Source: a virus
Reading direction: 5' to 3' (one strand)
IMG/VR virus record: IMGVR_UViG_3300049811_000250
Coordinates: 1-36,626 of that record
DNA: 36,626 bases
A model generated the notes under the pieces. The model was not told the origin of the DNA and ran no database searches. It saw only the letters and a program-made list of their open reading frames with translations. A program made the translations under genes and the position numbers. The first letter of the stretch is position 1. Each line of letters opens with the position of its first letter. Positions 649 to 24,008 of the stretch are shown here, one piece after another.

Positions 649-938
649 TCCCATCCTTTACGTTTGTTAAATTCACCGCCGCCAGCGGGGCGGCGCGCTA
701 ACCATCTACGCTCGTAGTACTTTGCAAGTACCTTGAACACGCAGCTACGTCCTACGCCTAAACGGCATTCCACGTCACGAGTTGATGCCCAACCATCACC
801 GATTGCAGCTTTATACTTCTCCCATGCTTGCGCGGCTTTTGCCGCGTTCGCGGGGCCAGTATTGTGGTTATTGTGGTTGCGACAAACAACGGGGCCGCCC
901 CACGGTTTGGCTGCTTCAAGCTGCTTTAGCAGGTTCAT
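630..938 (-). CDS. Putative winged-helix/HTH DNA-binding protein (102 aa)
   Basis: A 102-residue protein starting at ATG 938 (MNLLKQLEAAKPWGG). The open frame extends another 45 codons upstream, but that part shadows the preceding gene. The N-terminal half is polar with an NHNNHN patch. The middle, DGWASTRDVECRLGVGRSCV followed by VLAKYYERRWLARRP, has the layout of a helix-turn-helix plus wing: 'ST..V..RLGVGRS.V...L..Y..R.WL.RR'. The C terminus is basic. It is probably a small sequence-specific DNA-binding regulator. It overlaps the upstream gene by 23 nt, so it is co-expressed. The family call rests on helix pattern only. Confidence 0.65.
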   Translation of the reverse strand: MNLLKQLEAAKPWGGPVVCRNHNNHNTGPANAAKAAQAWEKYKAAIGDGWASTRDVECRLGVGRSCVFKVLAKYYERRWLARRPAGGGEFNKRKGWEWKCVK

Positions 939-1371
939 TTTGCCACCAGTAGGGGGGAGAGGTTTTCCAGGTCGCAAACTCGGCTTTGCTGTGATAGTAT
1001 TTGCGATAGGCAGTAACAGGGTCTTTGTCTTTGTATTGCTCAGGCATGCACTGAACAAAGTTGGCAACGGCAATGCGCAAAGTGCTAGGCGCTACGCATT
1101 GCTCGATGACTGCTTGGCACTTATGCACTTTGCCATAGCGGCGAGTGTACTCGGCGCAGATGGCAAGGCCATGGCGCTTGAGCCAATTGAAATGAACGCG
1201 ATTGGCGCCGGCCCACAGCACACATGGATGCCGCGCATGCGTTGGCTTGTAGGGGCCGCCACAGACAGTGGAGAGAATTTGCGCAGTTTCAAGCGCCATT
1301 TTCACCACGTGTTTATCGCATAGCATTTGCGCTGCGGTGACGGGGTTGTAGTCAAGCAGAAAGACGTTCAC
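916..1371 (-). CDS. Conserved phage protein of the DKHVVKM type (151 aa)
   Basis: Starts at GTG 1371 with AGAGGTGG just upstream, giving 151 residues beginning VNVFLLDYNPVTAAQMLCD. The signature is LDYNPVTAAQMLCDKHVVK, then METAQIL-type helix, PYKPTHARHPCVLWA, YTRRYGKVHKC and a C-terminal CMPEQYKDKDPVTAYRKYY with PPYWW. This combination is widespread in phage genomes (cyanophages and others) as a conserved protein of unsettled function. Several conserved His, Lys, Glu and Asp could form an active site. I do not assign an enzyme activity. It overlaps the HicA-like gene upstream by 20 nt and the HTH gene downstream by 23 nt. Confidence 0.75.
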   Translation of the reverse strand: MNVFLLDYNPVTAAQMLCDKHVVKMALETAQILSTVCGGPYKPTHARHPCVLWAGANRVHFNWLKRHGLAICAEYTRRYGKVHKCQAVIEQCVAPSTLRIAVANFVQCMPEQYKDKDPVTAYRKYYHSKAEFATWKTSPPYWWQNEPAKAA

Positions 1372-1570
1372 GTGCCCACCTCTTAAGAATTGCTTGATTG
1401 TTGAGGAGCGCTCGGTTGTCGCTCGGGCTGCGAGAGACAACAAGCATTCGCTCCCCCGCAGGTGCGGAGAAGACCAACTTGAGGTGCGAGCCTTGCACTA
1501 CGCGCACTAGTCGAATGCCAAGCGGTGCAGCGTACTGCTCCAGTTGCTTGACAAGTTTTTGATGATTCAC
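1352..1570 (-). CDS. HicA-like small RNA-binding-fold protein (72 aa)
   Basis: Starts at GTG 1570 with AGGAGC 6 nt upstream. The 72 residues match the pattern of stand-alone HicA-like proteins in phages: N-terminal helix (KLVKQLEQYAAPLGI), strand with VVQGSHLKLVF, then strand MLVVSRSPSDNRALLNNQ and a basic C-terminal helix. The catalytic-type His (H in GSHLK) is present. HicA toxins are mRNA interferases with a double-stranded-RNA-binding fold. No HicB antitoxin gene is adjacent, so a toxin-antitoxin role is not supported; an RNA-binding or decoy role is as likely. It is the first gene behind the promoter at 1598-1627. Confidence 0.65.
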   Translation of the reverse strand: MNHQKLVKQLEQYAAPLGIRLVRVVQGSHLKLVFSAPAGERMLVVSRSPSDNRALLNNQAILKRWARERLSA

Positions 1571-1745: not shown

Positions 1746-2174
1746 TTACGTCAGTTTTTCGACTTTTCGGCCCGCTTTCGTCCATTCTGAAATAACATGG
1801 TCGGCATGGTCATGATCCTCCAAGTAGACGATGCGCTGGCAGCTTGTGTTGAGCAGGGACTTCATACAGTTGTTGCAAGGTAGGGTGGTGACGTAGCAGG
1901 CGTGGATTTTGGTTACGTCGCGACAGTCCATGAGCGCATTGAGCTCGGCATGTACTGCTTGGCACATATCGCTACCCGCGGGGGCCTCTGCACCAACACA
2001 AGGTGTCTCGACGCAGTGGGGGAGACCCGCTGCCGTGCCATTGTAACCAGTAGAAAGGATGCGCCCCCGTGAATCCACAAGGACGCATCCCACTTTGCGC
2101 TTGACGCAAGTTGCCCTCTGCGCAAGGCAGAAGGCAACTGCAATCATAACCGCATCAAGACTTGGTCGCGGCAT
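1746..2174 (-). CDS. Deoxycytidylate (dCMP) deaminase
   Basis: A 142-residue zinc-dependent deaminase converting dCMP to dUMP, feeding thymidylate synthesis. The zinc site is complete: H75-A-E77 (CQAVHAELNAL) and PC100-xx-C103 (LPCNNCM). The N-terminal region has the family's CVKRKVGCVLVD strand and TGYNGTAAGLPHC loop, which in dCMP deaminases helps bind the nucleotide. Length is usual for a phage enzyme (T4 Cd is longer). It overlaps the pyrophosphohydrolase gene by 20 nt and lies last in the nucleotide-metabolism block. In phages with altered cytosine, this enzyme helps drain the ordinary dCMP pool; here it may do so beside the TS-family enzyme. No gene lies between it and the promoter at 1598. 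Confidence 0.93.
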   Translation of the reverse strand: MPRPSLDAVMIAVAFCLAQRATCVKRKVGCVLVDSRGRILSTGYNGTAAGLPHCVETPCVGAEAPAGSDMCQAVHAELNALMDCRDVTKIHACYVTTLPCNNCMKSLLNTSCQRIVYLEDHDHADHVISEWTKAGRKVEKLT

Positions 2175-2541
2175 TGAGGATACGCTCGATTTCAGCTTCG
2201 GGGCCGACCCAGCCTTCCGGCTTGACGGCGTCGTAGATCATGCCCCTCTTGGTCATGCCACGAATCTTCTGCATGTTGGCGGCATGAACGACTTTGAAAA
2301 CCTGGTCGAAGGGAATGCCCATCATGTGCGCAGTGCCAAGCGCCACGTAGACGAGGTCCGCCAACGCGTCTGCCACGCCCACCAGGTCGCCGTCGATGTA
2401 GGCTTGGCCCAGCTCTTCGATTTCCTCTTCCATGAAGGCGACGCGCTGGCCGAAGTCAACGGGCAGCTGCAGCGTGGGGGCGGTGTCATGAATGCCCAGC
2501 ACTTTGGCGTGAAACTGGGCGACGGCGTCATAATAGGACAT
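2155..2541 (-). CDS. MazG-like nucleotide pyrophosphohydrolase (dNTPase candidate)
   Basis: A 128-residue protein of the all-alpha NTP-pyrophosphatase (MazG/PRA-PH) superfamily, which hydrolyses (d)NTPs to monophosphate and pyrophosphate with Mg2+. Start chosen at ATG 2541 (MSYYDAVAQFHAKVLG); the longer frame shadows the upstream gene. The metal site is visible as EEEIEELGQA (about residues 37-46) and DALADLVYV (about 60-68), followed by GTAHMMGIPFDQVF and VHAANMQK, typical of phage members. It overlaps the TS-family gene by 14 nt. Substrate cannot be read from sequence. Its coupling to a dCMP-type TS homologue makes dCTP a plausible target, as for T4 gp56; dUTP or general house-cleaning is the alternative. 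Confidence 0.85.
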   Translation of the reverse strand: MSYYDAVAQFHAKVLGIHDTAPTLQLPVDFGQRVAFMEEEIEELGQAYIDGDLVGVADALADLVYVALGTAHMMGIPFDQVFKVVHAANMQKIRGMTKRGMIYDAVKPEGWVGPEAEIERILNAATKS

Positions 2542-3352
2542 ACGAGATTGCCTCCATCGGGTTGTAGTCTTCAAGGATGAACTGCTCGGGTTTGAAGTTG
2601 AACAGCGAGGCGTCCTCCCGCAACCGTGCCGTTGCACCGACAAGGCGTGTGGGGCGTGCCAGCTGCGTCTTGAGCTGCGCGACGTGCGCCTCGTAGATGT
2701 GCGCATCCCCGAATTGCATATAGACACGACCGGGTGCCATGTCGACTTCTTTGGCTACGAGCATGAGCAGCGCGCCGTAGAGCACCAAGTCGGAGGGCAA
2801 GCCCAAAGCAATATCCACCGAGCGCATATAGACAATGCAATCCAGTGTGTTGTCGCGGACGTAGAACTGCGCGAGCAAGTGGCATGGCGGCAAGCACATC
2901 TCGTCAAGCTCTTCGGGGTTCCAGGTAGTGAGGATATGCCGACGGCCGTACTTGTCAGACTTGATGCCATGCACCAAGGCGGCAAGCTGGTCCATACCGT
3001 GCCGCCCCCAGTCGCGCCATTGCACCCCGTAGATGCGCCCAAGGTAGTGCTCTTCGGGCGGCTGGCCAATGTTGCGCTTCCACTGCGCGGCGTTGTGGTC
3101 CCAGTAGTTGCAGCCATGCGCCTTGAACTGATGCAGCCAATCGGCCCCATCAAGGAACGCTGCAAGCTCGCCGATGATGCCCTTAATGAACACTTTGCGG
3201 GTGGTAAGAATGGGGAACTCATGCGAGACCAGCATAGACTGCATGGAGAGCCCCGGCTGCGAGTACGTATTACCCACGCGGCTTGGCTTCAGGTAGCCAT
3301 AGCCAAGTACCTGCGACGCAAGCCGCAGATACGCCATGTCAATGCTTGCCAT
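2528..3352 (-). CDS. Thymidylate-synthase family enzyme, predicted dCMP-specific (dCMP methyl- or hydroxymethyltransferase)
   Basis: A 274-residue full-length ThyA-family protein. Catalytic Cys157 (LPPCHLLAQFYV), the phosphate-binding Arg pair 137-138 (YGRRHIL), R177-S178, D180, the LGLP loop and H218/Y220 (GDAHIYEAH) are all present, as are E62 and W84. The key oddity is D188 in LGLPSD. E. coli ThyA has Asn177 here (LGLPFN), which selects dUMP. Known dCMP-specific enzymes such as T4 gp42 carry Asp, and Asn-to-Asp mutants of thymidylate synthase act on dCMP. I therefore infer a folate-dependent dCMP modifying enzyme, making 5-hydroxymethyl- or 5-methyl-dCMP. The retained Trp84, characteristic of methylating enzymes, keeps methylation open. 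It is translationally coupled to a pyrophosphohydrolase. An ordinary thymidylate synthase is the alternative. Confidence 0.8.
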   Translation of the reverse strand: MASIDMAYLRLASQVLGYGYLKPSRVGNTYSQPGLSMQSMLVSHEFPILTTRKVFIKGIIGELAAFLDGADWLHQFKAHGCNYWDHNAAQWKRNIGQPPEEHYLGRIYGVQWRDWGRHGMDQLAALVHGIKSDKYGRRHILTTWNPEELDEMCLPPCHLLAQFYVRDNTLDCIVYMRSVDIALGLPSDLVLYGALLMLVAKEVDMAPGRVYMQFGDAHIYEAHVAQLKTQLARPTRLVGATARLREDASLFNFKPEQFILEDYNPMEAISYVLL

Positions 3353-3602
3353 TCAGCACCTCGCGCTCGGCAAGTGTTGCGTAGCCAGCAATGTCGTGCC
3401 AATTGTCGGCGTGATTGGGGTTGCCGGTCAGAATGCGGGCTAGCTTTTGGCAGATATTTTCAACAGCTTCTTGCTGAACGGCTGTGAGCGCGCATTGGAC
3501 ATGCATGCGGCAATGGAACTTGAGCGCTTGAGCGCATGCCGCATTGGTAGCAAAATCGCCATGCGTGTTCTTGCGTTCGTCTAGCGTATCGTGTACGGAC
3601 AT
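3339..3602 (-). CDS. DUF6378-like phage protein (87 aa)
   Basis: An 87-residue protein with ATG 3602 preceded by AGGAG. It has the recognisable phage pattern: N-terminal LDERKNTHGDFATNA, a central helix (QQEAVENICQKLARIL) and C-terminal GNPNHADNWHDIAGYATLA. This ERK.THGDF ... GNP.H.D.W.DIAGYA arrangement defines a widespread small phage family (I believe DUF6378) of unknown function. The His/Asp-rich second half could bind metal. It is the first gene after the terminator at 3618-3645, overlaps the TS-family gene by 14 nt, and so opens the nucleotide-metabolism block. A link to nucleotide metabolism is inference from position only. Confidence 0.75.
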   Translation of the reverse strand: MSVHDTLDERKNTHGDFATNAACAQALKFHCRMHVQCALTAVQQEAVENICQKLARILTGNPNHADNWHDIAGYATLAEREVLNGKH

Positions 3603-3660: not shown

Positions 3661-4332
3661 TTAGGCTGCCGCAATTTCTTCGTTAGCGGCTTCTTTGGTC
3701 TTGCGGGCCGAGACCAGCTGGCCGGCAGCGACGAGCTTGCTGCGGTAGTAGGCGATGCAGGCGACCGAGGTCTTGGCCGTCGGGAACTGCTCGATCACCT
3801 TGGCATGCGCGTCCTTGTTGGACATGCCTTCGAGCAGCAGCGCCTTGGCAAACGCACCGACACCCTGGACCGGACCGCGCGGTGCGTTCGGGTCGATTTC
3901 CTTCGGCTCTTTCGGGGTCTTGGCAGCCTTCGGCTCGGCCGGCTTCGTGAGCTTGGCCAGGGCGGTACGGCCAGCCTTGAGGGACTTGAAAGTCTCGACG
4001 GTCGGCTTGCCCAGTTCGGCGGCGATTTCGTTGTAGTGCTCAACCAGTTCGTCCATGGTCATTTCGTTGGTATCGGTCATGAAGATTTCTCCTATGATTT
4101 GCAGGGCGCGCGGGTCATTGCGCGTTTTGGAAAGTGCACGGCAGAACCACTTGCGCGCCGCCGTGCGGGGATCCGCCTCAAACGGACGCGTAAACGTCCG
4201 CCTGAATTGGCTGGTTGACATTGCCACGCACCGCAGGCCGTCGGCCTTTGACGTGATGGCAAGAGTCATCTTGCTGTCGCTCTGGTAGACCATCGCGACG
4301 TGACTGTTGAAGTCTTTGTAAAACTTGTTCAT
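3661..4332 (-). CDS. Two-part conserved phage protein, leaderless start; internal start gives 139-aa form
   Basis: The open frame from ATG 4332 gives 223 residues. That ATG lies exactly 6 nt after the TATAAT at 4344-4339, so this mRNA should be leaderless. A second ATG at 4080 has a good ribosome site (AGGAG) and would give a 139-residue protein, MTDTNEMTMDELVEHYNEIA..., with no stop between. The N-terminal 84 residues (MNKFYKDFNSHVAMV..., an RRTFTRPFEADPRTAARKW stretch) are unrecognised. The C-terminal part has a Lys/Pro/Ala linker and a small helical domain: NKDAHAKVIEQFPTAKTSVA then CIAYYRSKL. The same domain makes up the 92-aa protein at 15271-15549, so the two are paralogues. The domain is common in phages and unexplained; it may bind nucleic acid. 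One promoter and a strong terminator make this a single-gene unit. Confidence 0.75.
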   Translation of the reverse strand: MNKFYKDFNSHVAMVYQSDSKMTLAITSKADGLRCVAMSTSQFRRTFTRPFEADPRTAARKWFCRALSKTRNDPRALQIIGEIFMTDTNEMTMDELVEHYNEIAAELGKPTVETFKSLKAGRTALAKLTKPAEPKAAKTPKEPKEIDPNAPRGPVQGVGAFAKALLLEGMSNKDAHAKVIEQFPTAKTSVACIAYYRSKLVAAGQLVSARKTKEAANEEIAAA

Positions 4333-4338
4333 ATAGCT

Positions 4339-4367
4339 ATTATATGCCTGTAGGCGTACCAAGTAAA
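4339..4367 (-). promoter_or_regulatory. Leftward sigma70-type promoter (TTTACT-17-TATAAT), leaderless output
   Basis: Minus-strand -35 TTTACT (4367-4362), 17-bp spacer, perfect -10 TATAAT (4344-4339). The ATG at 4332 begins 6 nt after the -10, where transcription would start. The upstream block AATTAGTTGTTTACTTGGT is nearly identical to that of the rightward promoter at 13169-13198. The -35 lies within a few bases of the stop codon of the upstream helicase gene. Confidence 0.8.
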
Positions 4368-4370
4368 CAA

Positions 4371-5759
4371 CTAATTTGTAGCAGTTTGCGACAGCAACGT
4401 TGCGCGCAGTGCAGCAAACAAGGCGTTCTGCGTCTCGTGCTTGGTGCCTAGTACTTTGCGGATGTACTTGTCAATGGTCTTCTCGGCAATGATATGGTAG
4501 ACCCGCACCGTGTTGCGCTGCCCCTGCCGGTGCAAGCGGGCGGTAAGCTGAATGTTCACCTCCAGGTTGTAGGTCTGCGAATACCAACACAGCGCGCTCC
4601 CCCCGAATTGGAGGTTCAAGCCGTGCGCTGCCGCATCGGATTGGACGCACAGTAATGGCGCCATGCCTGCGTTCCACTTGTCCATGATGGCCGTGACTGC
4701 TGTCCCCGTCATGCCACCACGAATAACCAATGCAGAAGGATGGCGTGTCAGGATTTGGTCGACCTCATGGTTGAAGTTGTAGGCAACAAGCAGCGGCTCG
4801 CCGGCCAGCTCTTCCACCAAGTCATCAAGTACATCGAGCTTGGCGGTATGTACTACCTCGTAATTGTGCTCCATGTCGGTATACACAGCCCCGCTTGCAA
4901 ACTGCCGCAGCTTGGACGTCAGCACGCCCGCATTGACGGGGGTGAGCACGGAGTTTTGCAGCTCCAGTATGCACAGCTCCTCCAATTGGCGATACTGCTG
5001 CAGCTCCTTTGAGGGGAGGACAGCCGGCAAGTCAATGTGCAGAACGTCTGGCAGCTTAAGCACTTCCTCAGGATTGATGTACATTGCCAAGTCAGCAATC
5101 TTGTTGTGAATCTGTTCCGCCTTCTCGTCCGTGATGTACCAGTTGAACTCGTCACGTGGCTTCTGATGGAAGTACTTGAGACGGTAGTGCGTGATGTAAC
5201 GCCCCAGCCGGTAGCCCAAGTCGAGCACGTAAAGCTGCCCGAACAGATCAAGCAAGCCGTTAGCAGCAGGTGTCCCCGTCAAGCCCCAACGGAATTGGAA
5301 CTTAGGGAGCAGTGCCTTGAGCGTCTTAAAGCGCTTGGTATTGGTATGCTTGAGTTTGGTCAGCTCGTCACACAGCAAGACCTGGAAGTCGAGCGGCTGC
5401 GTGGCAAGCCATGGAATGGCGTCGTAGTTGACAACCACAATGTCATAACGTGGGTTGGCCAGCACCTCCGCCTTGTCAGGGCCGTGAGCTAGCCCGATGC
5501 GGAGGGCAGCGAACTGCTCCCACCGTTTCGGCTCCGAGATCCAGGTGTTTTGTGCCACGCGCAATGGGGCTAGCACCAGCATGCGGTAGTTGTAGCCCAG
5601 CGCCCGCAGACGCAGGAACGCGGCAAGGGACGTGCTGGTCTTGCCAAGGCCCGGCGCCCAGAACAGCGCGCCCTCAGGGTGCGTGACTAACCAGTCAATG
5701 CCGCGTGCTTGGTAGTCATGCGGTTGCCATATCGACGGGAGGAAGTGAGAGACGCTCAT
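4371..5759 (-). CDS. SNF2-like superfamily 2 helicase
   Basis: A 462-residue SF2 DNA helicase/translocase. The start is ATG 5759 (MSVSHFLPSIWQPHDYQARG); the upstream extension shadows the nuclease gene. Motif Q-like YQARGIDWL, Walker A APGLGKT (35-41), motif Ia LVLAPLRVAQNTW, motif II DELT (131-134), motif III LTGTP, and motif VI QLTARLHRQGQ near residue 425 are all present, in the SNF2-type order. Such proteins are standard in phage replication modules and usually follow a VRR-NUC gene, as here with a 44-nt overlap. It likely remodels replication or recombination intermediates, powered by ATP. It ends inside the promoter region of the next gene. Confidence 0.92.
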   Translation of the reverse strand: MSVSHFLPSIWQPHDYQARGIDWLVTHPEGALFWAPGLGKTSTSLAAFLRLRALGYNYRMLVLAPLRVAQNTWISEPKRWEQFAALRIGLAHGPDKAEVLANPRYDIVVVNYDAIPWLATQPLDFQVLLCDELTKLKHTNTKRFKTLKALLPKFQFRWGLTGTPAANGLLDLFGQLYVLDLGYRLGRYITHYRLKYFHQKPRDEFNWYITDEKAEQIHNKIADLAMYINPEEVLKLPDVLHIDLPAVLPSKELQQYRQLEELCILELQNSVLTPVNAGVLTSKLRQFASGAVYTDMEHNYEVVHTAKLDVLDDLVEELAGEPLLVAYNFNHEVDQILTRHPSALVIRGGMTGTAVTAIMDKWNAGMAPLLCVQSDAAAHGLNLQFGGSALCWYSQTYNLEVNIQLTARLHRQGQRNTVRVYHIIAEKTIDKYIRKVLGTKHETQNALFAALRATLLSQTATN

Positions 5760-6021
5760 GGAGTATCCTAGCAAACATGTGCTTGTTGTCAATCTCGAAG
5801 CACTGGTGACGCATTGCAATGATTTGCGACTGTACGTGACGCTGGCCGGGTGTCAGCTCTTCGCCTGGGCGCTTGAACTCGCAAAAGAACTGCCGCCCAT
5901 TGGGGAGGATGCACAAACGGTCCGGCCAATGCGTTCGGCGCTGAATCTTGAGCAGCACGCAGCCATGCTTTTGGGCAAGGACCGCGCACTGCCGCTCAAT
6001 GCCAGATTCTAGTACTGACAA
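5716..6021 (-). CDS. VRR-NUC domain nuclease
   Basis: A 101-residue single-domain nuclease of the PD-(D/E)XK fold, VRR-NUC type. The catalytic line is visible as WPDRLCILPNGRQ then FFCEFKRPGEELTPGQ: D34, E48 and K50. Such proteins are usually structure-specific DNA nucleases, related to the FAN1 nuclease domain, resolving branched DNA. The apparent start is TTG 6021 preceded by AAAGGTGG, overlapping the end of the RecB-like nuclease gene by 13 nt. The gene overlaps the helicase start by 44 nt; VRR-NUC plus SNF2 helicase is a recurrent phage pair, and the two probably act together on replication or packaging intermediates. Confidence 0.9.
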   Translation of the reverse strand: MSVLESGIERQCAVLAQKHGCVLLKIQRRTHWPDRLCILPNGRQFFCEFKRPGEELTPGQRHVQSQIIAMRHQCFEIDNKHMFARILHERLSLPPVDMATA

Positions 6022-6665
6022 GGGCCACCTTTACTGTTGGAGAAGTCGCACCACTTGCAGTCACGGGACGGCGCCGGCTTCCACTGCTCCTCCGTGTAGA
6101 TAGGCGCAAAGTAGGTCTCGTATTTCTTGCGCAGTTCCAGCAGATGCTCGCGGGTATACTGCTTGGCGTAGGTGTTGTCTGCATCCACAAACCAAAACTC
6201 GGCCGTCACGGTCTTGACGTCGGGGTAGACCGCGCTCCCACAAATCGCATAGAGCTCGATTTGTTCCGTTGACGGCACGCGATACTTGCCTGTTTTGAAG
6301 TCAATGATGATGAGCGTCTCGCCCTGGAGGTAATGCGCGTCGGACTTGGCACGAAGCCATGTGTCGGGGTGCAGCCAATTGGGCAGCAGGTTCCATTGCT
6401 TGTCGAACCCCCATGCTGCTTCAGGCTTGCACTTCCACTCGCGCAGGTTGTCGAACTCCTCTTGCCAGTCGCTCAGCGGCTCGGACAGCGCAGTAATCCA
6501 TCCCCGCAAATACGCCTCTGCCTCGTCATGAATCTTGCTGCCGCGCTCCATGGCGGGCGAGCCTTGCGTCGGCAGTTTATCCATAAACTGGTACTTGAAT
6601 TTGGCCGGGCACGCACGGTAGCAATCCAGCTTTGAGAACCCGATAGCATCGGTAAATTTTGGCAC
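6009..6665 (-). CDS. PD-(D/E)XK exonuclease, RecB/Cas4-like, with Cys cluster
   Basis: A 218-residue nuclease of the RecB/Cas4-like PD-(D/E)XK superfamily. Start at GTG 6665 with AGGGAGGTG upstream, 1 nt after the polymerase stop. Conserved features are the N-terminal SKLDCYRACPAKFKYQ, GSKIHDEAEAYLRG (active-site His), IIIDFKTGKYR (core DxK-type line), the QIELYA helix motif, and C-terminal CKWC...C. C19 together with C203, C206 and C216 matches the four-Cys arrangement that holds an iron-sulphur cluster in Cas4/AddB-type nucleases. A 5'-3' exonuclease role is likely, supplying the activity missing from the phage polymerase, which lacks a 5'-nuclease domain, or acting in recombination. No CRISPR genes are nearby, so a Cas4 function is not implied. 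Confidence 0.9.
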   Translation of the reverse strand: MPKFTDAIGFSKLDCYRACPAKFKYQFMDKLPTQGSPAMERGSKIHDEAEAYLRGWITALSEPLSDWQEEFDNLREWKCKPEAAWGFDKQWNLLPNWLHPDTWLRAKSDAHYLQGETLIIIDFKTGKYRVPSTEQIELYAICGSAVYPDVKTVTAEFWFVDADNTYAKQYTREHLLELRKKYETYFAPIYTEEQWKPAPSRDCKWCDFSNSKGGPCQY

Positions 6666-6666
6666 G

Positions 6667-8460
6667 TCACACCTCCCTGAAATTGACACCGACATCCGTG
6701 TCGGCGATAAATGGGCAGTCCAGCACATCGGCGAACGCCTCTTCCATGCATGTTTGAAGCAGCAACCGCTCCCGCTCGACATGCTCGATTGGGCATTGAA
6801 TAACCAACTGGTCATGCACCGAGAACGTGAGCTGACCATGGAATGTCGCGCGGCAATAGTCCAGCATTGCTTGCTTGGTCTGGTCGGCTGCCGAGCCTTG
6901 AATCAAGTAATTGACCAACTTATACTCGAATGTGCGGGGGACACCCGCCACCACAGCAGGCGTCTCGGCGTAGTACTGCCGCCCACCGAGTGTCGTGATG
7001 GCTTGCCGCATCCTGCCCCGTGACTTGACTTCGTTGGACAGCTGCGCAATCTCGGGCAATGCTTTGAGGTATTCGTTCTTGACGCTTTGTGCTTTGCCCG
7101 TGTCGATGTAGAGGCTCTCGGCAATCTTCCCCACGCCAGCGCCGTACAGTACGGCAAAGCCCAGCGTCTTGGCTACCTTGCGGGTAATGCCTGCGATTTG
7201 GGCAGCGATCTGATGGACGTCTTCGCGAGGATTATCGACCAGTTTCTCGAGCATCTTGCCGCCTGCGAAGTGGGCCAGTAGCCGCATCTCCTGCGCCGCG
7301 TAGTCTGCCCCCACAAACACGTTGCCCTCATCCGGTATCAAGTACTTGCGGACTTGCGGCATGGGCGCGCGGAGGGTGTAGCCAATCCGCTCGAGTTGTG
7401 ACAGCAGCTTCTCCCACTCAGTCGGCACGTTCTGCAGATTGGGGGAGGAGGATAGACGGCCTGTCCGTGCGCCTGTATCGGAATAGTTGCGCACTTGGTT
7501 CCAACGGATGTAGAGCCGCCCGCCGGTCGCTTTGGCTTGCTGCAGCCACGGGTGCATGAAGGTCCGAATGCAGGTGGCAAGCGAGTTGCGCACCAGCAGA
7601 TGGCCCAGTAGTAAGGGGTCAGTCACGGCTTGCAGGAGGCTGTCTTTTGCCACCGAGCGCTGGCCCGTCGTGGTGGAGGCGAACCCTTGCGACAGTCCAG
7701 CCTCTTCGATTGCGTCGGCAAGGTCAGCGTTGCTGTCCACGTCCACATCACGCCCAAGAATGCGGCAGATGTCTGCATCGAGCCAGTCCAGCTCTTTGTA
7801 TGCCGCGTTCAGGTCTGTGGTAAGGGTGGGGACGTCAATCCGCACACCGCGCTGCTCCATAGCCAGAATGTGCGGCATGAGAGCCATCTCACGATGGTAG
7901 GCATCAACGAGCGACGGGTGCTCTGCGAACCGCGCATTGTAGTGGGTCCATAGCTCATAGGTCCGCGTGACGTCACCAATGGCGTACTGTCCTACCAGGT
8001 CGCCGGGCGCAAAGGCAATCCATGCGCCCCACCCCTTGCTGTCACGACACACGCCATGGTTGACAAGCCAATCCTTGACCGCATCCCGCTCTTCGGGAGG
8101 GAGACCGAGGTGCAGCTCGGCAAGCGGCTTGAGCGACAGCTCACCATGCGGGTTGTCAAGGAACGCCATGACCATGGTGTCTTGCACGATGGGCCATGGC
8201 ACTTCGAGCCCCCATTTCTCTTCAAGAATGGACGCGTCAAAGTTGGCATTGTGGAAGAGCACGTGGTCCGCCAGTAGCAGCTCCTGCCTCACGCGCTCGA
8301 TGGCCTCGGGCTCGGTGCAGTTGTTACCGGACGGATGTCCCCATGCCATGTAATACGGATCCTCGCCCACAACCTGTACGGCAATACCCACCGGAGTGGG
8401 TGGGTACGCCGGGCGCGGTTGAATGGCGTGAGACTCGAAGTCTAACACCAAGATACGCAT
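6667..8460 (-). CDS. Family A DNA polymerase (Pol I-like) with 3'-5' exonuclease
   Basis: A 597-residue replicative polymerase from ATG 8460 (MRILVLDFESHA). The exonuclease domain has Exo I DFES, Exo II HNANFDASIL and Exo III YAIGDVTRTYEL. The polymerase domain has motif A GADYAAQEMR (about 383), motif B RKVAKTLGFAVLYG (about 426, with Phe at the E. coli 762 position) and motif C VHDQL (about 550). There is no 5'-nuclease domain, as usual in phages. Motif C reads HDQ where most family A enzymes have HDE. The catalytic Asp remains; the Glu-to-Gln change could lower rate or alter fidelity. No thioredoxin-binding insertion like T7's is obvious. It is followed 1 nt later by the RecB-like nuclease and preceded by a Cys-containing protein. 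Confidence 0.96.
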   Translation of the reverse strand: MRILVLDFESHAIQPRPAYPPTPVGIAVQVVGEDPYYMAWGHPSGNNCTEPEAIERVRQELLLADHVLFHNANFDASILEEKWGLEVPWPIVQDTMVMAFLDNPHGELSLKPLAELHLGLPPEERDAVKDWLVNHGVCRDSKGWGAWIAFAPGDLVGQYAIGDVTRTYELWTHYNARFAEHPSLVDAYHREMALMPHILAMEQRGVRIDVPTLTTDLNAAYKELDWLDADICRILGRDVDVDSNADLADAIEEAGLSQGFASTTTGQRSVAKDSLLQAVTDPLLLGHLLVRNSLATCIRTFMHPWLQQAKATGGRLYIRWNQVRNYSDTGARTGRLSSSPNLQNVPTEWEKLLSQLERIGYTLRAPMPQVRKYLIPDEGNVFVGADYAAQEMRLLAHFAGGKMLEKLVDNPREDVHQIAAQIAGITRKVAKTLGFAVLYGAGVGKIAESLYIDTGKAQSVKNEYLKALPEIAQLSNEVKSRGRMRQAITTLGGRQYYAETPAVVAGVPRTFEYKLVNYLIQGSAADQTKQAMLDYCRATFHGQLTFSVHDQLVIQCPIEHVERERLLLQTCMEEAFADVLDCPFIADTDVGVNFREV

Positions 8461-8461
8461 A

Positions 8462-9169
8462 TCAGAACTTCTTGGCTTTGGTTTTGACTTCCGGCTTCGG
8501 CTCGTCGCGCTCCTCGAAAGTCGGATACGGTTGGACGAGCTGCTTGCGCGCCGTCTCCATGCGGCCAAGCAGCACCGCCAAGTCCTGCCCTTCCGCTTGC
8601 TGCTTGGGAGTGAGGCTGGCTTTGAAGAACGAGCGGGCGTCAGGCACCACCTTGAGCTGCGTGATGAACTGCCCGCTGAGCTTGCCACTTGCGGCGCAGC
8701 GACCAAAGAAGTCTTTGACGCTGGCCATGGAGGTGATGGGGAACGAGCACTGATACATCGGCGCGCTGTCCAACGGCGCGGAGGCAGGGAGGATAGCGAC
8801 GCGGGTGCCTTCACGGCACGCTTTGCCTTTCCCCTTGCTGCCCCACTCGTTCTGCGGGCAGCCCTCGCACGACGTGTGTTGCGGGTCACCGGCTTGTGGG
8901 TGCGGTGCCTCGCCGTCGAACGAGTAGCACGCGGGGACTTGCGGCTTGCTCGGGTCGTAGGCACCGGGGTAGTAGCTGCGCTCGCCCTGCTGCGCCAGCA
9001 CAATGACTTCCGCCTCGCCGCCCGGGACGGGCACGCCGTCGACGATGAGCTGACCGCCTTTGAAGCTGATCAGGTTGGCGCCGACTTGCATCTGGGCCAT
9101 CTTTTCTTGCTGAAGGGCCAGCTGCTGCTTGACGAGGTCTTCGACGGAAACGATTTGCGTATTGCTCAT
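8462..9169 (-). CDS. Conserved phage replication-region protein with Cys cluster (235 aa; ssDNA-binding candidate)
   Basis: A 235-residue protein, ATG 9169 with AAGGAG upstream. An N-terminal coiled-coil helix (VEDLVKQQLALQQEKMAQMQ) is followed by a beta-rich region (LISFKGGQLIVDG), then four Cys in ACYSFDG, TSCEGCPQNEWG and KACREG, probably a zinc-binding loop, and a helical C-terminal half ending in a charged Lys/Glu/Pro tail. I recognise the pattern SYYPGAYDPSKP...C...CEGCPQNEWGS...C.EG as a family found beside phage DNA polymerases. Function is unproven; single-strand DNA binding or recombination mediation is the natural guess from position. It ends 1 nt before the polymerase start, so the two are translated together. 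Confidence 0.75.
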   Translation of the reverse strand: MSNTQIVSVEDLVKQQLALQQEKMAQMQVGANLISFKGGQLIVDGVPVPGGEAEVIVLAQQGERSYYPGAYDPSKPQVPACYSFDGEAPHPQAGDPQHTSCEGCPQNEWGSKGKGKACREGTRVAILPASAPLDSAPMYQCSFPITSMASVKDFFGRCAASGKLSGQFITQLKVVPDARSFFKASLTPKQQAEGQDLAVLLGRMETARKQLVQPYPTFEERDEPKPEVKTKAKKF

Positions 9170-10569: not shown

Positions 10570-12854
10570 TGGAACTAGCAGAACAAATTGTCCATCCTTT
10601 CGGGATTGACCCCCTTGCGGTTAGCCGGTTGTTCATGCATGAAGACCTTGCCAAGTCGGGCTTGGTGCTTACTGATTTCCCCATCCCTCCAGTGCCGGTG
10701 GCAGCAGTTGGTGGTCGTGGGTGTTATCAGATCTGGTATGACGCCACATACTACAAGCTCAAAATTGATCGTGAGCATGACAAGTATATTGGCATTAAAG
10801 GAGTCCAGCCTCCGGTTGTGGTGCTTGGTGACCCTTACGGCGCGCCCATCACCGCCTCGGTGGAGGGACTGAAGAAGGCGCTCGCGTTCCATGTTACCAC
10901 GGGCATACCCACATTGGCTATCGATAGCTGCTGGGGTTTTGGCGAGAACGTGGAGGAGAACAACGGTATCAAGGTGAAAGACCTCCATACCGACATCATG
11001 CAGCATCTCACGCCAGGCCAGTCGCACCTTGTGCTTTTCGATGGGGACTGGGCTACTAATGACAATGTGCGTCTTGCTTTGGCGACGTATCGCATGCTGT
11101 TAGAAGAGCAAGGTGTCAAGCTGAAGTTCAAAGACATCGGCACTGGGCAGCACGGCCAGAAACTCGGATACGACGACTGGTTCGTGGAGTGCTATGGCAC
11201 CGACCGGGCACTGTGGCCGACGCAAAGTGCCGTGTTGGAGCAGGTAATTGTCAGTCTCAAGGACATCCCGAATGAAGAGCTGCTGGGGGGAGCGCAGTCA
11301 TTCGCGCTTAACAGCCCTATGCGGTTCTCAAAAGAATACCTCGATCTGACTGACCGTGGCGCTGGGTCCTTAATGGTCAAGCTTGTCGGCGTGGATAACT
11401 TCAAGTTTTGTAAGGACACGCAGGAGTGGATCCAGTGGGACGCCAAGACGTTGCGGTGGGTTAATCTTGGCAGCTCACCATACGGCATGATTGACATTGC
11501 CGCTCAGCACTATTTGCGTCGTGCCCAGGTGCTTAGTGCTCAGGCTGCCAAAATGGAGGGCAACAAAGAGCTTGAGGGCAAGATGAAGGGGCTGCTCCAG
11601 CAGGCCAAAGAATTCGCCAAGTTCGGCAAGGGGCATTGTAGTAGCACTGCGGGGCGTGGTGCCGTGCTCCGTGACCTCGAGTCCCGCAAGGAGTTGTGGG
11701 TGTTCAAGGATGAGTTCGACTCCAATCCTGACCTGCTGGCTGTGGCTAATGGCGTGGTGGAACTGCGGACCGGCACGTTGCGGGCGGAGCGTCAGTCGGA
11801 TCTGGTGCTGCGTCGCTGCCCCGACGACTACGTGAGTGAGGAGCCAACGGGGGACGACGTGGACCGTCTCAAGCAGTTCTTAGTGGAAATCACAGGGTCC
11901 GCCCACGGTGACCCCGACCCTCAGGCCCTGGAATACCTCCAACGCCGTCTCGGCGCCTCGGTAAGGGGGAAGAACAGTCTCACCGCCATCGAGTTGTGGA
12001 ATGGACATGGCAGTAATGGAAAGAGCGTGCTGTCGAACCTGCTGCAAGCTGCGTTGGGAGATACGGACAAGGGCGGCTACGCGTGTTCCACCAACGCGAA
12101 TGTCATCATGAGCACTGTCAAGGTGCGTGATGCGGAGAGTTCCACGCCGTTCTTGGTAAAGCTGATTGGCGCGCGGCTCGTGTTCATGGCGGAGAGCAAA
12201 GACACCGATCACATGAACGAGAGCTTCGTCAAGCAGATTAGCGGAGGGGACAAGATCACGGCCCGCGCTAACTATCAGGAGGGCAAGTCGTATGGCGTCA
12301 CGTTCTCCCCCGTATTGCTGACCAATAACCTGCCTCATATCAACGAAGGGGGAGAGGCACTGTGGGACCGGATTGCCGTGACCGAGTTCGCATGCCGCTG
12401 GCGGAGGCCGAACAAGCAATACGTCTCGGCGGAGGACCTCGCCCTTCCGCTTGGTGACTTGTGGTTTGAAGACGTGGCACCGCATAGCAAGAGCGTGCGG
12501 CAATGGCTTATCTGGTGGCTTGTGGAGGGATGCGTCAAGTGGTTCAAAGAGGGCTTGGGCGCAGTGCCGGAGCGGTACCACACCGCGGTCAGGGCTTACC
12601 AGGACAACAACGACAAATACAGTGACTGGATGGCAGAATGCGGTTGGTACTTTGTGGATAAAGATATTAATACACTGTCAGGGGAGCTGTATCGGAGTTT
12701 TGAGGCCTACACAGAAAGCATTGGCGGGAAGGCGCCAATTAACAAGATATTTACCAAGCGGTTGCTTGAGCGGTTCCCACAGCTCTCCGTGAAGCGGAGC
12801 AACGGGCGGAATGTGGTATGTGGTATTGCTTTGAAGGAAAGGATGGAGAAATGA
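10569..12854 (+). CDS. Primase-helicase: DUF3854/TOPRIM-like N terminus, D5_N and SF3 helicase
   Basis: A 761-residue replication initiator of the phage/plasmid D5 primase-helicase class. Residues about 85-190 have the TOPRIM-like DUF3854 pattern: VVVLGDPYGAPITASVEGLK (acidic residue followed by EG.KKA), then LVLFDGDWATND (the paired Asp). Residues about 280-440 form a D5_N-type region (ANGVVELRTG). The SF3 ATPase has Walker A GHGSNGKSVLSN (about 477-488), Walker B LVFMAES and the sensor motif LLTNNLPHI. The C-terminal 100 residues form a winged-helix tail (KIFTKRLLERFPQL). SF3 helicases commonly melt origins marked by iterons; the inverted repeats at 14754-14911 are a natural target. ATGA overlap with the next gene. 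Confidence 0.9.
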   Translation: MELAEQIVHPFGIDPLAVSRLFMHEDLAKSGLVLTDFPIPPVPVAAVGGRGCYQIWYDATYYKLKIDREHDKYIGIKGVQPPVVVLGDPYGAPITASVEGLKKALAFHVTTGIPTLAIDSCWGFGENVEENNGIKVKDLHTDIMQHLTPGQSHLVLFDGDWATNDNVRLALATYRMLLEEQGVKLKFKDIGTGQHGQKLGYDDWFVECYGTDRALWPTQSAVLEQVIVSLKDIPNEELLGGAQSFALNSPMRFSKEYLDLTDRGAGSLMVKLVGVDNFKFCKDTQEWIQWDAKTLRWVNLGSSPYGMIDIAAQHYLRRAQVLSAQAAKMEGNKELEGKMKGLLQQAKEFAKFGKGHCSSTAGRGAVLRDLESRKELWVFKDEFDSNPDLLAVANGVVELRTGTLRAERQSDLVLRRCPDDYVSEEPTGDDVDRLKQFLVEITGSAHGDPDPQALEYLQRRLGASVRGKNSLTAIELWNGHGSNGKSVLSNLLQAALGDTDKGGYACSTNANVIMSTVKVRDAESSTPFLVKLIGARLVFMAESKDTDHMNESFVKQISGGDKITARANYQEGKSYGVTFSPVLLTNNLPHINEGGEALWDRIAVTEFACRWRRPNKQYVSAEDLALPLGDLWFEDVAPHSKSVRQWLIWWLVEGCVKWFKEGLGAVPERYHTAVRAYQDNNDKYSDWMAECGWYFVDKDINTLSGELYRSFEAYTESIGGKAPINKIFTKRLLERFPQLSVKRSNGRNVVCGIALKERMEK

Positions 12855-13165
12855 AGCATCTTGAAACTGGGCGTGGCACCAAGCAATATCAAGATTTCTT
12901 CACGCCGTCTGATGTAAGCCAGCAATTGGCCACGCGTATTATGGCGGATTGGACGGCACGTGGAGAGCGGTTCGTCCGGGTTCTCGATCCCGCTGTGGGC
13001 AGTGGTAGTTTGATTTGGCCATTGCTTGAGCGGTGGGAGCATGGTCTGGAGGTTTTATGCTGTGATATCCAAGCAGATTACCTTGCCTTTGTGGAGGAGA
13101 AAGCACAGGCGCTGGGCTACACTGTTACACGTGAGCGCTTCGGGTTGCGTATTGTTGCTAATTAG
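12851..13165 (+). CDS. SAM-binding half of a DNA methyltransferase (104 aa, lacks motif IV)
   Basis: A 104-residue protein overlapping the primase-helicase by ATGA. It has the N-terminal part of a DNA methyltransferase: motif X DFFTPSDVSQQLA (residues 15-27), motif I LDPAVGSGSLIW (45-56) and a motif II strand-acid LEVLCCDIQADY (66-77). It ends after GYTVTRERFGLRI, before any NPP(F/Y) catalytic motif IV. It should bind S-adenosylmethionine but cannot transfer a methyl group alone. The next gene carries NPPF and a degenerate motif I, so the two may be complementary subunits, or this may be a decayed paralogue or a SAM-sequestering protein. A new promoter begins 3 nt after its stop. Confidence 0.8.
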   Translation: MKHLETGRGTKQYQDFFTPSDVSQQLATRIMADWTARGERFVRVLDPAVGSGSLIWPLLERWEHGLEVLCCDIQADYLAFVEEKAQALGYTVTRERFGLRIVAN

Positions 13166-13168
13166 TTA

Positions 13169-13198
13169 TTTACTTGGTGCTAGTAGTTTTGCTATAAT
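13169..13198 (+). promoter_or_regulatory. Rightward sigma70-type promoter (TTTACT-18-TATAAT)
   Basis: -35 TTTACT 13169-13174, 18-bp spacer, -10 TATAAT 13193-13198. AATTAGTTATTTACTTGGT is nearly identical to the leftward promoter at 4339-4367. The leader CTATAATATCTTTATTGACT is also shared, reversed, with the 15625-15630 region. It should give the nuclease-methyltransferase gene its own expression; AGGAG lies 9 nt before that ATG. Confidence 0.8.
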
Positions 13199-13233
13199 AT
13201 CTTTATTGACTAACTACTACAGGAGTAAATATT

Positions 13234-14379
13234 ATGTTTGAGTACTACGTATATGTTTGGACTTTCCCGGATGCTACTGTTGCTTACGTGGGTAAGGGAA
13301 AGAACGACCGCGATTTGGGGGCGAAGAACGAAAGCTTTGAAGCTGCCCGAAAGTGGCTTGAGTTTGGTGTTGAGCGCGTTGCCTACTTTGCTACCGAACA
13401 GGAAGCTTACACTTACGAGGCACAGCTTATTGCTGAGTACGACCCTGCGTTCAATCGGACGCGAGGCCTCACGCCTAAGAAGTGGGTCAGCGGGGTAGAC
13501 ACATACGTGGAGAAGAATGAAGTCAAGAAGCTCGCAGCACGCGGGGCGCTTAGCACTACGCCCTTGGAAGTAGCGACCGCTTTTATGGGAAATATGCCTT
13601 CAGAACTGGTGGAAGAGACGGTCATGTTTGTTGGTGACCGGTTCTCTACCATGTTGAAGGAGTTCCTGGATTGTAATCCTAATCATATTGGAAAGATAAT
13701 TCTTGTGGATAATTATGAAAGTGAGCACTATGTAGCGCTTGGTAAGGCGCTTGACGGGCATGAAGGGGCGAATATTGAGCCTGAAAACAAGGACTTCCTT
13801 GCTGAAGACTTCGAGCAGGTAGACTACGTGATTATGAACCCGCCTTTCACTGCGGCTAACGGAAAAACCACTTTATGGAACAGGTTTTTAGACAAGGCTC
13901 TCACGCTTGCCTCACGGGGAGTGTACACGCTTATGCCTATTCGGGGCACGCTTGGTCTTGAGCATGAGGTGCTGATCGAGCGGGTCGAGTTCGCGTCCAC
14001 ACCAGTTATTGGTAAGGCTATCTACGTGGTGCCTGGTGCTAAGCGCTTGGTGTTTGAAGAAGAAGTTTGTAAGTTTAAGCTAGACATTCGGATTTCCGAG
14101 CAGCGTAATGGGCAGCGGAATGTACTGCCCACTGTACCGTTTATTGGCATTAGTCGGAATAAAACCACCACTAACTGTAGCATTCGGACCAGCTTTGCGG
14201 ACGGTGATGGTTCCACGTGGTGCTTTATGGGCGAAGACCTTGAAATGGTCGCGCGCTTAATGGAAGAGAAAGACTTTGGTGCCATGATGAACCAGTTTAA
14301 GCGTGAGAAAGCCGCTAAGCTTGGCCACGCTGCTTCGTTGGTTCGTAGCGAAGTTATTAGCTTGCTTAATCAACTGTAA
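13234..14379 (+). CDS. GIY-YIG nuclease fused to NPPF-type DNA methyltransferase
   Basis: A 381-residue two-domain protein. Residues 1-80 are a GIY-YIG nuclease of the GKG-type (LEM3-like) subfamily: YYVYV (4-8) for GIY, YVGKGKNDR (18-26) for YIG with the catalytic-type Arg26, EAYTYEAQLI with metal-binding Glu62, and FNRTRG with Asn74. A linker (81-105) leads to a methyltransferase: STTPLEVATAFM (motif X-like), TVMFVGDRFSTML (129-141, in the motif I place but without DPAxGxG), IILVDNYESEH (motif II), KDFLAEDF (motif III) and DYVIMNPPF (197-205, motif IV of N6-adenine/N4-cytosine enzymes), then GVYTLMPIRG. The degenerate motif I raises the question whether it binds SAM alone or needs the preceding 104-aa protein. 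It could modify and cut DNA in one chain. Own promoter upstream. Confidence 0.82.
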   Translation: MFEYYVYVWTFPDATVAYVGKGKNDRDLGAKNESFEAARKWLEFGVERVAYFATEQEAYTYEAQLIAEYDPAFNRTRGLTPKKWVSGVDTYVEKNEVKKLAARGALSTTPLEVATAFMGNMPSELVEETVMFVGDRFSTMLKEFLDCNPNHIGKIILVDNYESEHYVALGKALDGHEGANIEPENKDFLAEDFEQVDYVIMNPPFTAANGKTTLWNRFLDKALTLASRGVYTLMPIRGTLGLEHEVLIERVEFASTPVIGKAIYVVPGAKRLVFEEEVCKFKLDIRISEQRNGQRNVLPTVPFIGISRNKTTTNCSIRTSFADGDGSTWCFMGEDLEMVARLMEEKDFGAMMNQFKREKAAKLGHAASLVRSEVISLLNQL

Positions 14380-15270: not shown

Positions 15271-15549
15271 TTATTCCGCCTTAGCTTCTTGAGCCTTGGC
15301 CTTCTTGGGGTAAACTCGAGCCCCAATGCGACCGTCTGCCCGCAGCTTCGACTTGTACCATGCGATACATGCCATGGAGGTTTTCGCCGTCTCAAACTTG
15401 GCCAAGACATTCTCGAGAATCTGCTTGTTGGACAGTTCCGGATTGTTCAAAATTTGATCGATAATCATTTGACCAATTCGAAGCGGTTTGACTTCGGTTT
15501 GAGCAACGACTTCATTGGAAACTTCAACGACTTTTTTGGCTTTTGCCAT
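15271..15549 (-). CDS. Small helical-domain protein, paralogue of the 3661-4332 protein (92 aa)
   Basis: A 92-residue protein, ATG 15549 with AGGAG upstream. Residues about 30-75 (LSNKQILENVLAKFETAKTS then MACIAWYKSKLRADGRIG) match the C-terminal domain of the protein encoded at 3661-4332: both share SNK...V...F.TAKTS.ACIA.Y.SKL.A.G. The N and C termini are Lys/Ala-rich and flexible. The domain is widespread in phages and has no assigned function; the basic character suggests nucleic-acid binding. It is transcribed leftward from an AT-rich region with TATAAT at 15630-15625, opposite to its neighbours, and forms a two-gene unit with the 44-aa gene. Confidence 0.8.
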   Translation of the reverse strand: MAKAKKVVEVSNEVVAQTEVKPLRIGQMIIDQILNNPELSNKQILENVLAKFETAKTSMACIAWYKSKLRADGRIGARVYPKKAKAQEAKAE

Positions 15550-22847: not shown

Positions 22848-23044
22848 CCGACAGGTTATTCCGGGCAGTTGTAGGGCAGGTCGTCCCGCTGTTGAGGCAG
22901 GACGACTTCCCGAGGCAGTACCGTCGGACATTCCAGATGCCACCGACTCCTCCAGCAAGTGAAGCGGATGTGCCGCCCATCACCCCCGATGAAGCACCCA
23001 ACCCTTCCCTTTCTTTAGGAGACTCAAATGGCATTCCCCAATAG
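22844..23044 (+). CDS. Doubtful small ORF between scaffold and coat genes (66 aa)
   Basis: A 66-codon frame that begins in the scaffold stop (ATGA) and ends 17 nt inside the coat gene. Its product starts MTDRLFRAVVGQVVPLLRQD and then becomes a Pro-rich tail. The stop-start overlap favours a gene. Against it, no family is recognised and the Pro-rich half overlaps the leader with the coat ribosome site. The DNA also contains an inverted repeat (GTCGTCC...GGACGAC near 22878-22905), so the gap may be regulatory instead. Confidence 0.3.
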   Translation: MTDRLFRAVVGQVVPLLRQDDFPRQYRRTFQMPPTPPASEADVPPITPDEAPNPSLSLGDSNGIPQ

Positions 23045-24008
23045 CGCGATCAGCGACATCATCGCCTCAACTATTCAGTCGCGTACCGGCCAAATCGCCG
23101 ACAACGTTACCAAGAACAACGCCCTGCTCGCCCGTCTGAAGCAGCGCGGCAACGTCAAGCCGTTCTCCGGCGGCAACGTCATCCTGCAAGAACTGTCCTT
23201 CGCCGAGAACGCGAACGCCGGCTACTACAGTGGTTACGAAACCCTGCCGGTCGCCGCCTCCGACGTGATCAGCGCCGCGCAGTACGACATCAAGCAGGCC
23301 GCCTGCCCCGTCACCATCTCCGGTCTGGAGCAACTGCAGAACGCCGGCAAGGAGCAGATCATCGACCTGCTCGAAGCCCGCATGACTGTGGCCGAATCGA
23401 CGATGGCGAACCTGCTCGCCGCAGGCGTCTACTCCGACGGTCTGGGTTCCGGTGGCAAGGAAATCACCGGCCTCAAGGCCCAAGTACCGACCGATCCGAC
23501 TTCCGGCACTGTCGGCGGCATCGACCGCGCCACGTGGAACTTCTGGCGCTCCAAGGTGTTCGACGCCACGACCAACGGCGGTGGTGCCACCACGGCAGCC
23601 AACATCCAGACCTACATGAACACGCTCTGGGCCTCTCTGGTTCGCGGCCAAGACCGTCCCGACCTGATCATCATGGACAACGCTTACTGGGGCTTCTACA
23701 TGGCCTCGCTGCAAGCGATCCAGCGTTTCACGTCCGACACCGACGCCAAGCTCGGCTTCGTGTCGATCAAGTACATGGACGCGGACGTGGTGCTCGACGG
23801 CGGTATCGGCGGCTTCATGGCCTCCAAGGAAATGTACATGCTCAACACCAAGTACATCTTCCTGCGCCCGCACAGCCAGCGCAACATGGTTCCGCTGTCG
23901 CCGGGCCAGCGCTACTCCGTCAACCAAGATGCCGCCGTGCAGATTCTGGCATGGGCCGGCAACCTCACCGCGTCTGGCCTGCAGTTCCAAGGCAAGATGG
24001 TTGAGTAA
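23028..24008 (+). CDS. Major capsid (coat) protein
   Basis: A 326-residue coat protein, ATG 23028 with a strong AGGAG. It begins MAFPNSAISDIIASTIQSRT and contains ARLKQRGNVKPFSGGNVILQ, an N-terminal arm/E-loop layout, a long helix region (GKEQIIDLLEARMTVAEST) and C-terminal NTKYIFLRPHSQRNMVPL. This matches the P22-coat-like/HK97-fold major capsid proteins found in many environmental podoviruses. Position after a scaffold gene, strong ribosome site and biased codon use (GC-rich third positions, few rare codons) all fit the most abundant virion protein. It forms the icosahedral shell. The opposite strand is open for about 320 codons, again a shadow. Confidence 0.9.
   Translation: MAFPNSAISDIIASTIQSRTGQIADNVTKNNALLARLKQRGNVKPFSGGNVILQELSFAENANAGYYSGYETLPVAASDVISAAQYDIKQAACPVTISGLEQLQNAGKEQIIDLLEARMTVAESTMANLLAAGVYSDGLGSGGKEITGLKAQVPTDPTSGTVGGIDRATWNFWRSKVFDATTNGGGATTAANIQTYMNTLWASLVRGQDRPDLIIMDNAYWGFYMASLQAIQRFTSDTDAKLGFVSIKYMDADVVLDGGIGGFMASKEMYMLNTKYIFLRPHSQRNMVPLSPGQRYSVNQDAAVQILAWAGNLTASGLQFQGKMVE

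Follow-up and report, generated by a model that had tools for sequence, protein, structure and literature searches.

We found that the phage represented by the 36,626-nucleotide stretch of DNA analyzed here (the window) encodes an Asp-type member of the ThyA (thymidylate synthase [TS]) family, in a run of overlapping genes that also encodes a nucleotide pyrophosphohydrolase and a dCMP-deaminase-family protein. We propose that the synthase is a dCMP methylase and that the three proteins would together lead to 5-methyl-dC being placed in phage DNA. We consider this proposal, taken as a whole, fairly likely. It concerns the following features.

2528..3352, minus strand: Asp-type ThyA-family protein, predicted dCMP methylase, 274 amino acids (PF00303, E 1.8e-72)
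2789..2791, minus strand: GAC codon for Asp188, equivalent to E. coli Asn177 and T4 gp42 Asp179
2155..2541, minus strand: PRA-PH/MazG-like nucleotide pyrophosphohydrolase (PF01503, E 2.2e-16; phrog_671)
1746..2174, minus strand: dCMP-deaminase-family protein (PF00383, E 4.7e-17; PF14437; phrog_174 dCMP deaminase)
3339..3602, minus strand: DUF6378 protein, directly upstream of the synthase (PF19905, E 6.1e-8)
3661..8478, minus strand: conserved upstream genes (C-terminal-repeat protein, SNF2-type helicase, small ORF, PDDEXK nuclease, family A DNA polymerase)

The synthase gene is an intact reading frame. We numbered its residues from a MAFFT alignment with E. coli ThyA, whose numbering was consistent at all landmark residues. 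We found that Glu62 (E58 in E. coli), Trp84 (W80), Tyr108 (Y94), Arg137 and Arg138 (R126 and R127), Leu154 (L143), Cys157 (C146), His158 (H147), Ser178 (S167), His218 (H207), and Tyr220 (Y209) are kept. An earlier sequence-only reading had stated that the catalytic residues Cys157, Arg137/138, His218, and Tyr220 are all present, that Asp188 is the counterpart of E. coli Asn177, and that its codon at 2791-2789 is GAC, and each of these points held. Of the residues examined, Arg106 (P92), Ser187 (F176), and Asp188 (N177) are altered. Asp188 pairs with Asn177 without a gap, and the numbering offset is constant at 11 from Arg137 through Tyr220, so the pairing is independent of gaps.

A structural alignment, which the same reading had named as a check, gave the same answer. 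An AlphaFold2 model of the synthase (mean pLDDT, 93.6) superposes on 4gev, an E. coli TS structure, with a Z score of 36.3 and an rmsd of 1.3 Å over 258 residues, and Asp188 falls on Asn177. A structure search with the model gave Z scores up to 36.8 among the matches listed, where identity to cellular TS was 34-38%. T4 gp42 was absent among the best 50 structure matches listed, which has no bearing on the gp42 fold, and its similarity to the window synthase is distant but significant (3e-12). The protein therefore has the profile, fold, catalytic Cys, Arg pair, His, and Tyr of the TS superfamily, and it departs from a canonical dUMP TS in having Asp rather than Asn at position 177.

Asp at this position is a documented dCMP determinant (PMC6400193; PMC5175136; PMC8670742). 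Literature quoted in PMC8670742 describes an Asn177Asp TS whose preference shifts from dUMP to dCMP and that makes 5-methyl-dCMP. Because Asp188 is structurally aligned with Asn177, dCMP is the likely substrate, and the residues make it highly probable that the enzyme would act on dCMP rather than dUMP. An ordinary dUMP TS that tolerates Asp, with dUMP supplied by the deaminase, would agree with the remaining checked TS residues, including His147 and Leu143, being kept. However, this Asp is the established dCMP determinant, it is kept in 19/19 Asp-type loci, and the tree described below splits these cleanly from the Asn types. We consider an Asp-tolerant dUMP enzyme very improbable. The engineered Asn229Asp and Asn177Asp TS enzymes carry this substitution too, and their active sites are otherwise canonical; the window protein differs from them in that it is natural, belongs to a family that has partner genes of its own, and also has Phe176 changed to Ser.

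The sequence-only reading had given the product as 5-methyl- or 5-hydroxymethyl-dCMP. The signature of hydroxymethylation pairs an acidic residue, Asp or Glu, at position -3 from the catalytic Cys (Cys-3) with Ser or Thr at position -2 from the active-site Tyr (Tyr-2) (PMC6400193). T4 gp42 carries both (Asp145 at Cys-3 and Ser94), whereas the window protein has Leu154 and Arg106. The absence of this signature makes 5-methyl-dCMP likelier than 5-hydroxymethyl-dCMP, and from these residues we predict that the product is probably methyl. A gp42-type dCMP hydroxymethylase, giving 5-hydroxymethylcytosine DNA, would share with our protein the TS superfamily, the Asp determinant, and a dCTPase and a dCMP deaminase as coworkers, and the similarity to gp42 noted above also fits. 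In contrast, the window synthase has the TS-type C-terminus that gp42 lacks and the identity to cellular TS given above, and we found neither a glycosyltransferase nor a carbamoyltransferase in the window. A hydroxymethylase is thus very unlikely. The dCMP half of the earlier claim stands as likely, and the hydroxymethyl half is not supported.

Two proteins with other annotations carry Asp both at position 177 and at Cys-3 (KDVPC): AXL3 gp28, annotated as a thymidylate synthase (L082:6243-7052), and a PW916 "deoxyuridylate hydroxymethyltransferase" (L083:3280-4098). On this basis, both seem to be dCMP hydroxymethylases. A ThyX (gp50) is likewise encoded by AXL3, whose DNA resisted 35/37 restriction enzymes.

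The sequence-only reading had overlooked the genes that overlap the synthase. The DUF6378 gene ends 14 bases inside the synthase gene, the pyrophosphohydrolase ATG at 2541 gives a 14-base overlap with the synthase end, and the last 20 bases of the pyrophosphohydrolase gene are shared with the start of the deaminase gene. These successive overlaps resemble a tightly coupled operon, in which we predict a dCTPase-like role for the PRA-PH pyrophosphohydrolase. Also overlooked was a possible conversion of 5-methyl-dC nucleotides to thymidine nucleotides by the deaminase, like that reported for Xp12. Taken as a whole, the earlier interpretation is partly supported. The order of the 3661..8478 genes is identical in one related locus, L085 (polymerase, PDDEXK nuclease, small ORF, SNF2 helicase, variable protein, small protein, synthase, PRA-PH, deaminase), and varied versions occur in L002, L088, and L062. 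Searches of the window recognized no nucleotide kinase, and those for thymidylate kinase, ThyX, and DHFR found none there.

Several other window genes were noted. Just downstream of the deaminase, and possibly in the same operon, is a pyrimidine-dimer-glycosylase-like gene (919-1443, minus strand; PF03013, E 6e-10). A 72-amino-acid protein (1352-1570, minus strand) looks by eye like a HicA-type RNase (GSHxK motif) and has no Pfam match. The proteins at 3661-4362 and 15271-15549 (both minus strand) share, by eye, a C-terminal motif, AKTSxACIAxYxSKL, which adjoins the synthase in relatives L002, L003, L039, L085, and L088. At 12818-14379 (plus strand), a short methyltransferase-like ORF precedes a second ORF in which, by eye, the start is GIY-YIG-like and another part resembles an NPPF adenine methyltransferase; the profile matches were PF05175 (E 0.0017) and phrog_799 DNA methyltransferase.

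Across 157 phage loci, the residue at position 177 is Asp in 19 and Asn in 138. The nearest viral relatives (L002 and L003) have Asp, as do L039 and L062. In a maximum-likelihood tree, all the Asp types lie on one side of a single branch (support, 93/94), a confinement that is more than chance. The window synthase pairs with L085 (100/99), a placement that needs caution since both branches are long. Arg106 was rejected as a marker of the Asp type, as it is present in Asn types too (e.g., L004). A short-motif tblastn search of phages for Asp-type synthases returned mostly Asn-type T4-like synthases and was dropped.

We found a deaminase gene near the synthase at 18/19 Asp loci versus 0/138 Asn loci. 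At the lone Asp locus without one, L087, the synthase gene wraps round the contig ends, and the full record contains both a deaminase and a PRA-PH gene. In whole phage records, a dCMP-deaminase-family protein was present in 14/14 Asp-type versus 5/30 Asn-type records (Fisher p about 6e-7 with near-copies removed), counts that are not phylogenetically independent because the Asp types occupy one side of one branch. The linked-deaminase profile detects T4 Cd at 9e-29 and is thus able to see ordinary dCMP deaminases. A PRA-PH/MazG-like pyrophosphatase was found in 13 of the 14 Asp-type records, which thus have both partner domains. Each of the 14 has a single synthase gene and lacks both ThyX and a second thymidylate synthase. 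The same partner genes occur in the AXL1 and AXL3 lineages, whose synthases share only 21-26% identity with the window protein. Among 80 loci from bacterial genomes, one is of the Asp type, and it has both partners. At L208:2279-4265, an Asp-type synthase is accompanied by PRA-PH and deaminase genes on a 5.4-kb contig that is binned as Candidatus Fermentibacteria and is likely viral.

This gene set matches that of Xp12, a phage in whose DNA 5-methylcytosine replaces all cytosine (100%; PMC7653180) and whose infected cells contain a dCMP methyltransferase (PMC8543423). In the gene-set comparison, AXL1, a close Xp12 relative, was the stand-in for Xp12 (record MT664984); AXL1 DNA is resistant to most enzymes with G/C in their site (PMC9206674). 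An Asp-type synthase, a pyrophosphohydrolase, and a deaminase occur together in the window operon, in 13/14 Asp-type records, and in AXL1, where the three genes adjoin and no second synthase is annotated. The AXL1 synthase differs in being only ~21% identical to that of the window, and it carries Asn at Cys-3 and Pro in place of His147. AXL1 further encodes DHFR and RNR, and its capsid genes are unrelated to those of the window phage, which are Mx8/BUCT555-like. The window major capsid protein (23028-24008, plus strand) shares 69% identity with its counterpart in Stenotrophomonas phage BUCT555 and 60% with the one in Myxococcus phage Mx8. BUCT555 has an adenylosuccinate synthetase homologue and no annotated synthase, and perhaps a different base modification.

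The window gene set also resembles that of contigs from MetaGPA, a selection of cytosine-modified DNA from environmental samples. As described in PMC8670742, modified contigs carry Asp177 synthases with phosphoribosyl-ATP pyrophosphohydrolase, dCMP deaminase, and MafB19-like deaminase domains, and the window has the same domains (PF01503, PF00383, and PF14437) beside its Asp177 synthase. A carbamoyltransferase, frequent in the MetaGPA contigs, is the difference, as the window has none that we could find. In the same paper, position 147 is a second residue distinguishing modified contigs; the window keeps His147 (His158), while L003, L107, and AXL1 have Pro there and AXL3 has Thr.

A cytosine-modified genome is therefore plausible, and from the gene content we lean toward modified cytosine in virion DNA. 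Palindromes in the window are rarer than Markov expectation, both 4-base (0.88, -5.0 SD) and 6-base (0.72, -8.6 SD; a matched 6-mer control set was also low, at 0.84). Unlike the window, AXL1 and AXL3 show no avoidance of 4-mer palindromes; T4 shows some. Asp-type loci gave a mixed result, with weaker 4-mer and stronger 6-mer avoidance than Asn-type loci. The avoidance weakly disfavors complete cytosine replacement, with base composition and host as confounders. It fits unmodified DNA, as would result if the deaminase converted all 5-methyl-dCMP to dTMP. Such a thymidylate route would also be consistent with the deaminase in every Asp-type record, with the lack of ThyX or a second synthase in any of them, and with published activities: the Xp12 deaminase is reported to convert 5-methyl-dCTP to dTTP, and related deaminases accept 5-methyl-dCMP (PMC12088426). 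However, it leaves the dCTP-removing pyrophosphohydrolase unexplained, the MetaGPA contigs with the same gene set came from the cytosine-modified fraction (PMC8670742), and both outcomes coexist in Xp12. A route without modified DNA is unlikely.

According to our preferred model, in which 5-methyl-dC enters phage DNA, the dCMP methylase would have derived from a thymidylate synthase by the Asn-to-Asp change. It would use methylene-tetrahydrofolate and normal TS chemistry, with Cys157 attack at C6 and hydride transfer, and yield 5-methyl-dCMP. The PRA-PH pyrophosphohydrolase would convert dCTP to dCMP, which would both deplete plain dCTP and supply the methylase. As no kinase was recognized in the window, we assume that phosphorylation of 5-methyl-dCMP to the triphosphate would fall to host kinases. 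The family A polymerase of the phage would then insert the 5-methyl-dC nucleotide, replacing part or all of the cytosine. The linked deaminase may provide thymidine nucleotides from dCMP via dUMP and the host synthase. Alternatively, its direct substrates may be 5-methyl-dC nucleotides, the route reported for Xp12; we put forward this use of methylated nucleotides only tentatively. An aromatic residue lies near the pyrimidine methyl in the XP-12 (Trp128) and T4 (Tyr153) deaminases; we could not locate its counterpart in the window deaminase, where the alignment is unreliable.

The window phage thus appears, from its genes, to be a new example of a known cytosine-methylation gene set matching that of phages with 5-methylcytosine DNA. 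It brings the Xp12-type set into a distinct phage lineage, one with a synthase that differs little from ordinary TS, and it opens a natural counterpart of the classic Asn-to-Asp experiment to study. The linked deaminase as a source of thymidylate is the interesting, testable part. Within a limited literature survey, Xp12 is the only phage with reported deamination of a methylated dC nucleotide. It is possible, if somewhat doubtful, that a dUMP-free pathway from dCMP through 5-methyl-dCMP to a thymidine nucleotide, in which the methylase would feed both 5-methylcytosine and thymine, is widespread in environmental phages unrelated to Xp12. If the deaminase does use methylated nucleotides, phages would have a general way to thymine that bypasses dUMP, and many phage annotations of "thymidylate synthase" and "dCMP deaminase" would have been misread.
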